Source of the DNA: Candidatus Cloacimonadota bacterium
GTDB taxonomy: Bacteria > Cloacimonadota > Cloacimonadia > Cloacimonadales > Cloacimonadaceae
Reading direction: 5' to 3'
Assembly: GCA_012522935.1 (NCBI GenBank)
Contig: JAAYJN010000007.1
Coordinates: 1-49,188 of the forward strand
DNA: 49,188 bases
The position numbers were made by a program, and so were the translations under genes. Under the pieces are notes generated by a model. The model was not told the origin of the DNA. It did no database searches and saw only the letters and a list, made by a program, of their open reading frames with translations. Below, in pieces: positions 11,047-15,588 of this stretch (positions are counted from its first letter, which is position 1; every line of letters starts with the position of its first letter).

Positions 11047-11122
11047 GCATCTCTAGCTCAGTCGGCAGAGCAACTGACTCTTAATCAGTGGGTCCGGGGT
11101 TCGAATCCCCGGAGATGCACCA
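11047..11122 (+). tRNA. tRNA-Lys (CTT)
   Basis: A full cloverleaf: acceptor GCATCTC/GAGATGC, D-stem GCTC/GAGC, anticodon stem ACTGA/TCAGT with loop CTCTTAA (anticodon CTT), T-stem CGGGG/CCCCG with TTCGAAT, discriminator A and an encoded CCA. It lies just upstream of the metK leader, about 205 bases before metK. Confidence 0.97.
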
Positions 11123-11191
11123 TGTTTTTCTGTTTTCAATTGCCGGTATCCCATTGTGGATCTGGACCGGTAATGGGAGCAGTGGATAGAT

Positions 11192-11240
11192 TGCGGTAAT
11201 TTGCCCTTTGCTCCGCATGACAAATGTGCTAAAGTGCGGC
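11192..11240 (+). promoter_or_regulatory. Candidate SAM-II/SAM-V-like riboswitch in the metK leader
   Basis: P1 can form between TGCGG (11192-11196) and CCGCA (11213-11217). The enclosed loop holds ATTTG (11199-11203), which can pair with CAAAT (11221-11225) just after P1 to make an H-type pseudoknot. GTGCTAAA follows (11226-11233), matching the conserved GCUAAA ligand-site segment of SAM-II. The order and spacing of these parts match SAM-II, and the next gene makes SAM. Against it, the loop has GCCC where SAM-II usually has AACC, and the GG that should close the pseudoknot is about two bases too far. A second TGCGG (11235-11239) could compete for the 3' strand of P1. Not a certain call. Confidence 0.45.
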
Positions 11241-11256
11241 TGATTCATTTATGGAC

Positions 11257-11281
11257 GACCGGCTTTGGTGCCGGTCTTTTT
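11257..11281 (+). terminator. Intrinsic terminator or attenuator upstream of metK
   Basis: A perfect 7-bp hairpin GACCGGC-TTTGGT-GCCGGTC followed by TTTTT. It lies 47 bases before the metK start codon. It may end tRNA-Lys transcripts or act as a conditional attenuator of metK. The upstream segments GCCGGT (11142-11147) and GACCGG (11165-11170) are complementary to its two arms. Confidence 0.85.
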
Positions 11282-11327
11282 GCATTGGGTCCAAACAAAG
11301 ATATTTTAGTGTTTAAGGAGAATATAA

Positions 11328-12500
11328 ATGACAGCCCTGCACGCAAATTTGCCCTGTGACAAGAACGAATATGTGTTCACCTCCGAATCCGTGAGTGAGG
11401 GTCATCCAGACAAGGTTAGCGACCAGATATCAGACGCGATATTGGACGCCTTTTTAAAGCGGGATCCTTATTCCAAAGTAGCCTGTGAAACTCTGTGTAC
11501 CAAAGATTTTGTGCTGCTTTCCGGAGAGACCTCCTCCCCCTCCCATGTAAGTTTTGAAGTGGAGCCTTTGGTGCGCTCTATCATCAAAGAAATCGGCTAT
11601 GTTCATCCCGGCAAGGGTTTTGACCATAATTGCAAGATAGTCAATCTGTTGCATGATCAGGAAACTGAGCTGAGGGAAAACACCGGAGCCGGAGATCAAG
11701 GCCTCATGTTTGGCTATGCCTGCAGCCAGACCCATCAATTGATGCCATCCCCTATCGTGATGGCACACAACCTCTTGCTCAAGATGAGTCAACTGCGCAA
11801 AGACGGCACCATCCCCCAAATCCTGCCGGATTCCAAATCCCAGGTAAGCATGCGCTATTGTGGCAGAAAACCCATGGCTTTGGAAACTGTGGTGATTTCC
11901 ACCCATCATCAGCCCCTCAGTGATGCCCAGTTCAAAGACCTCAAGGCTGCCATCCAGGAGCTGGTGATCGTGCCAGTGGTGCAGGAAATGGAGCGAGACA
12001 GCATGTGCAGCTTTTGCTCTGGCGATTATGAGGTGAAAATCAACCCCCTGGGAATGTGGGAAGATGGTGGACCCGCAGCAGATACGGGGCTCACCGGCCG
12101 CAAGATTATCGTGGATACCTATGGCGGCTGGGCTCAGCATGGCGGTGGCGCATTTTCCGGCAAGGATGCCAGCAAGGTGGATCGCAGCGCCGCCTATATG
12201 GCGCGTCACATCGCCAAAAGCATTGTTGCCTCCGGATTGGCAGAAGAATGCCTGATTCAGTTTTCCTTTGTGATTGGCGAGCATGAACCGGTATCTTTGA
12301 TGGTGGAAACCTTTGGCAGCGGGGAGATGCCCGATAGTCAAATCGAAAAGCGCGTGAAGGCAAGTTTTGACTTGACAGTAAAAGGAATCATTGATTATCT
12401 GGATTTGAGAAGAGCGATCTACCTCCCAACCGCCAGTTATGGCCACTTTGGCAGAAGCGAAGATATCTTCAGCTGGGAAAAGATAAAAAAGCTCGTTTAG
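11328..12500 (+). CDS. metK: S-adenosylmethionine synthetase
   Basis: The 390-residue enzyme that makes SAM from methionine and ATP in the cytosol. Signatures include TSESVSEGHPDKVSDQISDA near residue 20-40, GAGDQGLMFGYA near 122-133, and GGGAFSGKDASKVDRSAAY near 265-283 (the P-loop-like and metal-binding motifs). Length is standard. The ribosome site AAGGAG lies before the ATG. The leader contains a terminator and a candidate SAM-sensing pseudoknot. kdsA starts 9 bases after its stop, so it heads the LPS/rpoN gene run. Confidence 0.98.
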   Translation: MTALHANLPCDKNEYVFTSESVSEGHPDKVSDQISDAILDAFLKRDPYSKVACETLCTKDFVLLSGETSSPSHVSFEVEPLVRSIIKEIGYVHPGKGFDHNCKIVNLLHDQETELRENTGAGDQGLMFGYACSQTHQLMPSPIVMAHNLLLKMSQLRKDGTIPQILPDSKSQVSMRYCGRKPMALETVVISTHHQPLSDAQFKDLKAAIQELVIVPVVQEMERDSMCSFCSGDYEVKINPLGMWEDGGPAADTGLTGRKIIVDTYGGWAQHGGGAFSGKDASKVDRSAAYMARHIAKSIVASGLAEECLIQFSFVIGEHEPVSLMVETFGSGEMPDSQIEKRVKASFDLTVKGIIDYLDLRRAIYLPTASYGHFGRSEDIFSWEKIKKLV

Positions 12501-12509
12501 GCGTGATTT

Positions 12510-13319
12510 ATGACACTTTTTGAAAAGCTAAAAGAAGCCAAGCCCTTCTTTTTGATTGCAGGACCCTGCGTGGTGGAAGACTTGGATACAATGAGGCACA
12601 CTGCCCAAACGCTGGTGAATCTGAGCGATGAATTAGGCTTGCCGTTGGTATTCAAATCCTCATATCGCAAGGCAAATCGCACAAGTGGAGACTCACCGGA
12701 AGGTCCCGGCTTGGAACAGGGCTTGACTATCTTACAAAAGCTGAAGCAGGATTTTGGCTTCCCCATTCTCACAGATGTGCATGAATGTGTGGATGTGCCT
12801 ATTGCCGCTGAAGTGTGTGACATCCTGCAAATACCCGCATTTTTGAGCAGACAAACTGCGCTCATCGAAGCTGTGGCATCTTCCGGCAGGATAGTAAATA
12901 TCAAAAAAGGGCAGTTTATGGCTCCTGAAGACATCATTTCTGCCGCCTCCAAAGCCCAAAATGCCGGGACGGATGAGGTGTTGCTCACAGAGCGGGGTAG
13001 CAGCTTTGGCTATCATAATTTGGTGGTGGATTTTAGGGGGTTTGCCATTATGGCACAATCCCAGCTCCCTGTGGTATATGACGTTACCCACTCCCTGCAA
13101 AGGCCATCTTTGGGCAAGGCATCCGGCGGCACACCCCAATATGCCGCCATGATGGCACGGGCAGCCATGGCTACAGGGATGGTGAAGGGACTCTTTATCG
13201 AAACCCATCCCCAGCCCTCAAAGGCCCTCAGCGATGCAGCCAGTATGTTGCCTCTGGATGAGATGCGAGGTTTGTTGACAGATGCCATCCGCGTGAGAAT
13301 GGCTTTGGATGAAACCTGA
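12510..13319 (+). CDS. kdsA: 3-deoxy-D-manno-octulosonate 8-phosphate synthase
   Basis: A 269-residue KDO-8-phosphate synthase that condenses PEP with arabinose 5-phosphate, the first step towards the KDO of LPS inner core. Family features visible are FFLIAGPCVVED near residue 11, FKSSYRKANRTSGDSPEGPGLEQGL near 50-75, TDVHE near 95, IPAFLSRQTAL near 110-120, NIKKGQFMAPEDI near 131, and VYDVTHSLQRP near 190. Length is typical. It is tightly linked to metK upstream and to kdsC 62 bases downstream, marking the host as LPS-bearing. Confidence 0.97.
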   Translation: MTLFEKLKEAKPFFLIAGPCVVEDLDTMRHTAQTLVNLSDELGLPLVFKSSYRKANRTSGDSPEGPGLEQGLTILQKLKQDFGFPILTDVHECVDVPIAAEVCDILQIPAFLSRQTALIEAVASSGRIVNIKKGQFMAPEDIISAASKAQNAGTDEVLLTERGSSFGYHNLVVDFRGFAIMAQSQLPVVYDVTHSLQRPSLGKASGGTPQYAAMMARAAMATGMVKGLFIETHPQPSKALSDAASMLPLDEMRGLLTDAIRVRMALDET

Positions 13320-13381
13320 GCGTAATATGTATAATCGGACTAAGTCATTAACCTATGTATGCACTATTAAAGGAGTAACTA

Positions 13382-14002
13382 ATGCCAGAACTGCGTTTTA
13401 AAGAGATACATCCTGGAGATTATGAGGCTTTTTCCAGGCAGGTAAATTTCTTGAAAAAATATGAAAAACCCCTCAAAACCAGAATTAGATGGGACAGGAT
13501 CAAACTCCTGATTTTCGATTGTGATGGAGTGATGACGGATGGGCGCATCATTTATGGGAACGAAGGGCAAGAACTGAAGAACTTTTGTGCCCAGGACGGA
13601 ATGGGTTTTATGCTCTTGCAGCATACCGATATCACTGTGGCAGTTATCACGGGCAGAGAATCCGAGGCGTTGACGCGGAGATGTAAGGACCTTAAGATCC
13701 AGTATGTGTATCAGAAGATCAGCAATAAACTGGAGCAGACGAAAGAGCTGTTGGCAGAGCTGAAGCTGGATTTTGACAATGTGCTCTTTATGGGTGATGA
13801 TTGGAACGACATCCCCACCATGTGTCACGCTGCAGTGGCGGTGGCGCCTGCCAATGTCCAGCGCGACGTGGCTGTTTATGCGGATTATGTGATGGTTTCC
13901 AGCGGTGGGCATGGAGCAGTGAGAGAGTGTATCGAGCTGGTGCTCAACAATATGAGCATCTATGAGCAGACGGTGGTGAGTTATCTTAACAAGATTTCTT
14001 AG
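13382..14002 (+). CDS. kdsC: KDO-8-phosphate phosphatase (HAD family)
   Basis: A 206-residue C0-type HAD phosphatase that removes the phosphate from KDO-8-P. Motif I is IFDCDGVMTDGRI near residue 43-55, motif II is AVITGRES near 88, and motif IV is FMGDDWNDIPTM near 136-147. It has about 38 extra N-terminal residues before motif I compared with minimal KdsC proteins. The start is supported by an AAAGGAG site 7 bases upstream. It follows kdsA and its 3' end overlaps the coding sequence expected for the lptC signal peptide. Confidence 0.93.
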   Translation: MPELRFKEIHPGDYEAFSRQVNFLKKYEKPLKTRIRWDRIKLLIFDCDGVMTDGRIIYGNEGQELKNFCAQDGMGFMLLQHTDITVAVITGRESEALTRRCKDLKIQYVYQKISNKLEQTKELLAELKLDFDNVLFMGDDWNDIPTMCHAAVAVAPANVQRDVAVYADYVMVSSGGHGAVRECIELVLNNMSIYEQTVVSYLNKIS

Positions 14003-14024
14003 GGCAGCTTGCCTGGCATGGCTG

Positions 14025-14531
14025 ATGCTTGCCTTTGCCTGTAAATCACAGGACCTGAACCAGAAGTTTGACACTCTGGATAGGAATCTGCCGGATGAGA
14101 GCAGTCTGGACGTGAAAATAGTGGAATTTGATGGAGATAAGGTGGATTATGAGCTATCGGCAAAGCGTATCGATCGCTTTTATGATCGCCGCATCCTGAA
14201 TGCCATCAGTGCCAGCCTTACTTCCTACAATCACGATACGGGCGGAGTCTCCTATCTGCAGGCGGATTCCACCATTGTGGATGATGCCCGCAACATGGTC
14301 TTTGCCTATGGGAATGTGAGGCTCAGCTCGCCCAGCGGCACGGTTCAATCCGCAAGTATGACCTGGGATAGAAATATGGATCAAATCATAGCTCCGGGGC
14401 AGGTGGTCTTGACCAAAAATGGCAATACCCTGCGCGGTAACCATCTGCGCACCAATTCCAATATAGATTATGCCCAAATGGAGACGGTTTCTGCCGATGG
14501 CATCTTTGACGCGTCTGATTTTGATTGGTAG
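14025..14531 (+). CDS. lptC: LptC-like LPS export lipoprotein, start uncertain
   Basis: A periplasmic protein of the LptC/OstA-like fold that relays LPS from the LptBFG transporter to LptA. From ATG 14025 it has 168 residues and begins MLAFAC, where LAFAC looks like a lipobox, leaving only five residues ahead of the lipid-modified Cys. The frame stays open upstream to 13980, encoding a credible signal peptide (TRFLRAACLAWLMLAFAC), but no ATG, GTG or TTG occurs there. ATC at 13983 or CTG at 14013 are the only options apart from 14025. OstA-like repeats (VSYLQADSTIVDDARNMVFA, then GNVRLSSPSG) follow. It lies between kdsC and lptA as in other diderms. Confidence 0.75.
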   Translation: MLAFACKSQDLNQKFDTLDRNLPDESSLDVKIVEFDGDKVDYELSAKRIDRFYDRRILNAISASLTSYNHDTGGVSYLQADSTIVDDARNMVFAYGNVRLSSPSGTVQSASMTWDRNMDQIIAPGQVVLTKNGNTLRGNHLRTNSNIDYAQMETVSADGIFDASDFDW

Positions 14532-15588
14532 CCTGCTCCTTTTGCTGCCACTTTGTATGCAAGCAGCGCAGGCGCAGGAGAAGTTTAAGCTGATTCACTC
14601 CGACCAGCTGAATTATAACAAGCTGGAAAACGAGCAAATCCTGGAGTTGAGGGGCAAGGTGCACTTTTGGTATGGGGATACGGAGTTTAAAAGCGATAGG
14701 GCGATGATCTTTGACGTGCAGAAGATTGCCCGCTTGATGGGTAATGTGACGGTTATCAACGACTCTTTGGAGCTGAAGGCCGATAGCGTGGCGTATTATC
14801 GCTTTAGTGAAGAGCTGAATCTGGGCGGCAAAGTGCGCGTAACGGAAAGGCGCCAGAGCGGCAGCCTGAGGTGGTTTGCCAGCCAATACGCCGTCTACAA
14901 CCGCAAAGAAGACAAGCTGACGGCATGGCAGGATGTATCTTCTTGGGATAAGGATGAAAACGCCCATGCCTCCTGTGGTTATGCCTTTTGGGATAGAGAC
15001 AATGGTTATGCCTATATGATCGAGAACCCCATGCTGAGCGCAGGGGAAGAAGACACTTTATATATCAAGGCGGATAAGATAGAGTATTTTGATGAGGGGC
15101 GCAAGATCGTAGCCACATTCAACGTGAATGTGCAATCCAGTGACTATCAGATTACAAGCGACTTCCTCATCTACCTGATGGATGAAGAGAAGGCAGTATT
15201 CACCGGCATGCCGGAGTTTGCCTCCGAATATGCCATCGCAACGGCTGATGAATTCTATCTCTTCTTTGATGAACGCAAGCTGGACAGGGCAGAGCTGCAA
15301 GACAATTGCAGGGTATATTTTGCCCAGGAAAAAGATGCACCCAAAGAGAGCTGGGTTACGGCAAACTATATCGCCATCAGTTTTCGAGAGGAGGGAATCG
15401 ATAACTTTAGTGCTGAGGAGGATGTGGAATACTTTTTCCATCAGACCAAAGAGCGTAAACAGGATGAGTTTTTTAACAGTGCGAAAGGCTTTTATTTGGA
15501 AGCTAAGTTCAATGATGATAACAAACTGGAATGGATGCAGATGAATCAGCAAGTGAAAGGCATCTACAAATTCCACAACAATCCTTGA
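14497..15588 (+). CDS. lptA: LptA/OstA-family LPS transport periplasmic protein
   Basis: A 363-residue exported protein with an N-terminal signal peptide (LTRLILIGSLLLLLPLCMQ, cleavage probably after AQA) and several OstA/LptA beta-jellyroll repeats such as LELRGKVHFWYGDTEFKSDRA and ARLMGNVTVINDSLELKADS. It is about twice the length of E. coli LptA, so it has more repeats and could form a longer periplasmic bridge. ATG 14497 is chosen because it starts the signal peptide; it overlaps lptC by 35 bases. A promoter for lptB overlaps its stop codon. Confidence 0.85.
   Translation: MASLTRLILIGSLLLLLPLCMQAAQAQEKFKLIHSDQLNYNKLENEQILELRGKVHFWYGDTEFKSDRAMIFDVQKIARLMGNVTVINDSLELKADSVAYYRFSEELNLGGKVRVTERRQSGSLRWFASQYAVYNRKEDKLTAWQDVSSWDKDENAHASCGYAFWDRDNGYAYMIENPMLSAGEEDTLYIKADKIEYFDEGRKIVATFNVNVQSSDYQITSDFLIYLMDEEKAVFTGMPEFASEYAIATADEFYLFFDERKLDRAELQDNCRVYFAQEKDAPKESWVTANYIAISFREEGIDNFSAEEDVEYFFHQTKERKQDEFFNSAKGFYLEAKFNDDNKLEWMQMNQQVKGIYKFHNNP

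Follow-up and report, generated by a model that had tools for sequence, protein, structure and literature searches.

The leader of metK, the gene for S-adenosylmethionine (SAM) synthetase, on contig JAAYJN010000007.1 of a Candidatus Cloacimonadota bacterium (49,188 nucleotides (nt), hereafter the window) very probably carries a divergent SAM-II-type riboswitch that controls the gene by transcription attenuation. The element occupies positions 11192-11281, 5' of metK. This reading is based on conservation of the leader, covariation in helix P1, an invariant core, reciprocal matches of covariance models, a conserved exclusive pairing between aptamer and terminator, the terminator itself and the metK context. 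Sequence comparison places it on a new and strongly divergent branch within SAM-II, as a variant of a known switch type and not a new class. An earlier note on this DNA had proposed a SAM-II-type pseudoknot followed by a terminator before metK, and conservation, P1 covariation, the invariant core and the reciprocal model matches bear it out. The sequence parts on which the proposal was built are present, namely TGCGG/CCGCA, ATTTG (11199-11203), GCTAAA (11228-11233) and a terminator that starts 17 bases past GCGG, with perfect arms (GACCGGC, 11257-11263; GCCGGTC, 11270-11276) followed by T5.

For comparison, metK leaders were collected from 30 loci comprising the window and its relatives (protein identity 62-100%). 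A common block, NGCGG-URAUUUGCYCUUUGCUC-CCGCN-variable-AAAUGUGCUAAAGUGCGG-spacer-terminator, is shared by 30/30 loci. Covariance model R1 was constructed from 29 distinct leaders of the family, with P1 as the only structure and with no SAM-II sequence included. It matches 43 of the 50 genomes of the window's Cloacimonadota family and one genome in a second family of the same order, likewise before metK, while a search of the rest of the phylum gave no convincing match. The gene lies downstream of the element in every leader checked, and a U-tailed hairpin was found in 41/41 metK leaders.

P1 encloses loop L1 and the 5' strand of P2, which corresponds to the layout of an H-type pseudoknot. Its core pairs are present in all 44 sequences, and the two outer pairs change in compensation (C-G/A-U/U-G/G-C/U-A and G-C/A-U/G-U), so that the covariation sought among related metK leaders is found for this helix. 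The additional P2a, 2 base pairs (bp) long, is paired in 92% of cells, with few two-sided changes (G-C to G-U/U-A; C-G to A-U). None of 500 shuffles and no slid register equals the structure as a whole in paired cells or covariation score. AUUU in L1 is invariant in 44/44 sequences, and UUGC/GCUAAA of P2 does not vary among the metK copies. The ordered pattern ATTT-TTGC-GCTAAA occurs once in the window, against a shuffle mean of 0.09. A pattern search used as a genome-wide control disclosed 7 occurrences in the 2.13 Mb genome, with the P1 helix in place only at the metK copy (5 bp; at most 3 in the others).

In the crystal structure of SAM-V, the ligand core consists of the third strand U8-U10, of U19-U20-G21 and of U47-A48-A49-A50, and SAM-II is nearly superimposable on it, with the same ligand-binding core (PMC6061858). 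The order of AUUU, UUGC and GCUAAA, with P1 between them, is that of both SAM-II and SAM-V, and positions matching the SAM-V ligand core are all invariant in metK copies. A different pseudoknot pairing, ATTTG/CAAAT, had been suggested in the earlier note and explained there as a compensatory change. Its G-C pair is G-C in only 8 of 44 sequences and unpaired in 26 of 44, and its covariation does not rise above that of shuffles. The pairing is therefore not supported. In both Rfam SAM-II models, moreover, the consensus reads AUUUG. The corresponding Us make up the third strand of the triplex in SAM-V (PMC6061858), and the pseudoknot helix is UUGC/GCUAA.

The long-loop form of SAM-II in Bacteroidota (RF01726) shares with the element the order P1, AUUUG, UUGC, A-rich L3 and GCUAAA, and is likewise located before metK. 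It differs in the L1 and P2 joins, which are a few bases shorter in the Cloacimonadota element, with CUUUGCUC in place of GAUUGCAA and AUGUGCUAAAG in place of AAAUGCUAAA. The Cloacimonadota element also has a terminator overlapping the switch, a feature for which the Bacteroidales loci were not searched. This form is reciprocally matched by R1, which finds 16 of the 30 accepted Bacteroidales SAM-II sites with correct position and strand (top score 23.1 bits, E 7e-5), compared with 5 other matches in 90 kb. The statement that SAM-II is usually not found before metK does not hold for them, because metK is directly downstream in 29 of the 30 (L142, L150-L178). The remaining one (L171) precedes a gene with a metH-like N-terminus.

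With alphaproteobacterial SAM-II (RF00521, SAM_alpha), for which the examples given in PMC9373788 precede metA and metZ, the element has in common P1, GAUUUG, GCUAAAG and their register, and differs from it in P1 sequence and loop. Compared with SAM-V (RF01826), the extra P3 helix is missing and the expression platform is a terminator, whereas SAM-V acts translationally. The SAM/SAH (S-adenosylhomocysteine) and SAM-Chlorobi RNA elements lie directly before metK (PMC2864571), as does the element described here, which unlike them does not match their Rfam families.

How the aptamer could be coupled to the terminator is indicated by a 7-nt complement (CUUUAGC) to the P2 3' strand GCUAAAG, kept in the terminator of 39/41 metK leaders. 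In a permutation control with 420 arrangements of the same letters the mean was 0.64, and only two others scored about as high. The terminator 5' arm and loop are complementary to GUGCUAAAG and CGG, reading CCGGCUUUAGC in most leaders and CUUUGGUGC, with wobble pairs, in the window. GCUAAAG is therefore shared by two competing structures, the aptamer and the antiterminator. Alternate folds were anticipated in the earlier note and are retained in the form of this conserved GCUAAAG/CUUUAGC pairing; the fold it had described, based on upstream GCCGGT/GACCGG, is limited to the window's species and a near-identical sister, and in part to one more. The second TGCGG, regarded as a competitor for P1, may still act in this way, but it does not covary with P1, since P1 becomes ACGG/CCGU in three species and the downstream TGCGG stays unchanged.

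Folding of the growing transcript gave P1 plus antiterminator as the minimum free energy structure for 3' ends between 11270 and 11274 (-19.8 to -22.5 kcal/mol), and the terminator once its second arm is complete. Across the family, the two are close in energy in folds without bound ligand, with the antiterminator favoured in 32/39 (median -1.7 kcal/mol). In the proposed mechanism, P1 would fold first in the nascent RNA. Abundant SAM would then bind the triplex of L1 (AUUU) and P2 (UUGC/GCUAAA) and lock GCUAAAG in the pseudoknot, so that the downstream CCGGCUUU...GCCGG could fold only as the terminator, switching metK off. When SAM is scarce, GCUAAAG, together with the adjacent CGG, would pair with CUUUGGUGC and with CCG in the terminator 5' arm and loop, blocking the terminator and allowing metK to be transcribed. 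It is likely, from sequence features, that the ligand is SAM, that its binding stabilises P2 and that the switch works in the OFF direction. Such a mechanism agrees with the link to terminators in Proteobacteria, where SAM-II is the class most often associated with them (PMC2258182), and with the mechanism predicted for metZ in Sinorhizobium (PMC9373788).

Several observations weigh against the assignment to SAM-II. Given Rfam cut-offs of 44 bits for RF01726 and 36 bits for RF00521, the former scores 14.8 bits on the window, and the latter reaches 17.6 bits at locus L078, where it is the top Rfam match. In the bacterium's own genome, the Rfam SAM-II model fails to single out the metK leader site. 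The earlier note had counted model scores below threshold as a refutation, and such scores were indeed obtained: RF01826 gave no match even at E 10, SAM-II, SAM_alpha and other families were without a match when the window was compared with Rfam at threshold, and no hit above the RF01726 cut-off was obtained in the genomes of relatives. The weak RF01726 and RF00521 matches fall on the aptamer in one consistent register. Evidently, the Rfam SAM-II models do not cover the Cloacimonadota branch, and admission to Rfam depends on a revised model. Concerning the helices, covariation counts in P1 partly reflect shared ancestry and are support, not proof, with slid controls in agreement; P2 is paired in 100% of cells, and two of its pairs vary on one side only, so that covariation cannot confirm a helix that is invariant. 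Nearest-neighbour folding, from which the energies derive, cannot model the pseudoknot. Finally, all metK copies have U at the position opposite A47 (SAM-II numbering), where SAM-V has an A that pairs with A50. This facing base is A19 in SAM-II and A18 in SAM-V. In the listed Bacteroidales SAM-II sequences the same position is occupied by A or C, and A opposite A47 is for this reason not a strict criterion of SAM-II.

The U at this position could also be explained by a SAM-II-like fold with a retuned pocket that binds another ligand, for example SAH or a different SAM-derived metabolite. Two extra copies of the aptamer, not adjoining metK, have A47 changed to G, and there is a precedent in SAM-I variants that bind spermidine, some of them before metK (PMC10853860). 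On the other hand, the remaining core is invariant, also at the two Us close to the sulfonium and at the U pairing with the adenine, the occurrence of C in some Bacteroidales SAM-II RNAs shows that the facing position tolerates change, and the association with metK fits feedback by SAM. We consider another ligand improbable. It is similarly doubtful that the U opposite A47, together with the additional copies carrying A47G, marks a branch that has come to recognise the amino-acid part of the ligand differently, in which some copies would sense a different metabolite.

Attenuation of metK under some other control, by a protein, a tRNA or translation, would make the likeness to SAM-II a coincidence. 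The subthreshold Rfam scores and the tRNA-Lys gene just upstream would be in line with this, but the AUUU/UUGC/GCUAAA core, in this order and with P1, occurs nowhere else in the genome, and R1 picks it up reciprocally in SAM-II RNAs of Bacteroidales. Furthermore, no match to the Rfam T-box or another known leader was obtained, and in two leaders the aptamer is kept and tRNA-Lys is missing from the vicinity, which makes such control highly improbable. Equally improbable is regulation at the level of translation, known from metX SAM-II and from SAM-V, with a constitutive or unrelated terminator: the Shine-Dalgarno sequence is ~76 nt past the aptamer and also past the terminator, and translational control would not need the complementarity to the ligand-binding strand that 39 of 41 leaders keep in the terminator. 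Transcription attenuation by a SAM-II-type switch is thus preferred, and its parts are listed in Table 1 together with adjacent features.

Table 1. Features of the metK leader and adjacent genes in the window.
Feature	Positions	Strand	Basis or remark
tRNA-Lys, anticodon CTT, head of likely transcript	11047-11122	+	Rfam RF00005, 71 bits; ARAGORN (L001 1220-1295)
P1 5' strand UGCGG	11192-11196	+	pairs with 11213-11217; outer pairs covary
L1 third strand AUUU (UUU = SAM-II U10-U12, SAM-V U8-U10)	11199-11202	+	invariant 44/44; contacts from PMC6061858
P2a 5' strand GC	11203-11204	+	pairs with 11236-11237; 2 bp, moderate support
P2 5' strand UUUGC	11207-11211	+	pairs with GC-AAA of 11228-11233; invariant in metK leaders of alignment A1
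P1 3' strand CCGCA	11213-11217	+	pairs with 11192-11196
L3, variable 5' part, then AAAUGU	11218-11227	+	A-rich linker to P2, SAM-II-like
P2 3' strand GCUAAA(G), putative ligand-binding and switching strand	11228-11234	+	invariant in all metK-linked copies
GCGG: P2a 3' strand (GC) and inner antiterminator strand (CGG, 11237-11239)	11236-11239	+	
Antiterminator: 11226-11234 (GUGCUAAAG) with 11263-11271 (CUUUGGUGC), plus CGG 11237-11239 with CCG 11259-11261	11226-11271	+	
Intrinsic terminator: 7-bp stem, 6-nt loop, U5	11257-11281	+	sequence; -15.1 kcal/mol
metK Shine-Dalgarno AAGGAG	11315-11320	+	sequence
metK, SAM synthetase, regulated gene	11328-12500	+	Pfam PF00438/PF02772/PF02773 (S-AdoMet_synt N, M, C)

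Nearly all metK leaders of the family (L001-L030) are preceded closely by a gene for tRNA-Lys (CUU). In 13 of 28 leaders P1 starts 6-13 nt past the tRNA 3' end, a spacing that leaves no room for a separate promoter, and in these leaders tRNA-Lys, riboswitch and metK probably form a single transcript. If so, SAM-induced termination would free tRNA-Lys without metK. On the other side of metK, at 12510-15588 of the window, there are genes of the type involved in 3-deoxy-D-manno-octulosonate (KDO) metabolism and lipopolysaccharide transport (DAHP_synth_1 family, HAD hydrolase, LptC-like, LptA/OstA-like), and because they follow metK, this envelope operon may also be affected by the switch.

Some further copies are notable. 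A second aptamer copy with a terminator-like hairpin (L064, G029:C36:8362-8417, minus strand; 56.5 bits) reads GCUAAGG. It precedes a 99-aa open reading frame (ORF), for which Pfam gave no match, and a gene for a protein resembling McrB (MrcB_N and AAA_5). Another copy reading GCUAAGG (L065, G073:C20:19087-19142, minus strand) has no ORF of at least 80 aa in the next 1.6 kb, and is possibly decayed or orphan. In a genome of family f2, a diverged version before metK (L069, G053:C278:770-827, minus strand) has a possible 5-bp P2a (UCACA/UGUGA) and a terminator stem that differs yet still contains CUUUAG. One assembly includes two metK loci with identical aptamers (L067 and L068, on G072:C61 and G072:C111) and is probably a mixed or duplicated bin.

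Weak model matches in other Cloacimonadota families and at L074 (L070-L074) were rejected as degenerate and lacking metK downstream. Four occurrences of the sequence pattern in other phyla (Helicobacter, two Nitrosopumilus, Bacteroidales) were also rejected, since chance could account for so few and no terminator or metK context was seen. No aptamer was found in metK leaders of other Cloacimonadota families, where the gene mostly follows closely after an apparent upstream reading frame. No S-box riboswitch was found in 46 Cloacimonadota relatives, and an open literature search on Cloacimonadota and riboswitches returned no relevant report of SAM-II.

Undetected riboswitch variants were anticipated by Barrick and Breaker (PMC2258182), and the Cloacimonadota element would be of such a kind. 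Alignments A1 and A2 supply sequences able to broaden the SAM-II model. In this compact and conserved element, the putative ligand-binding strand itself would be the switching strand for the terminator. With it, SAM-II-type switches would be extended to Cloacimonadota, where Rfam cut-offs detect none.
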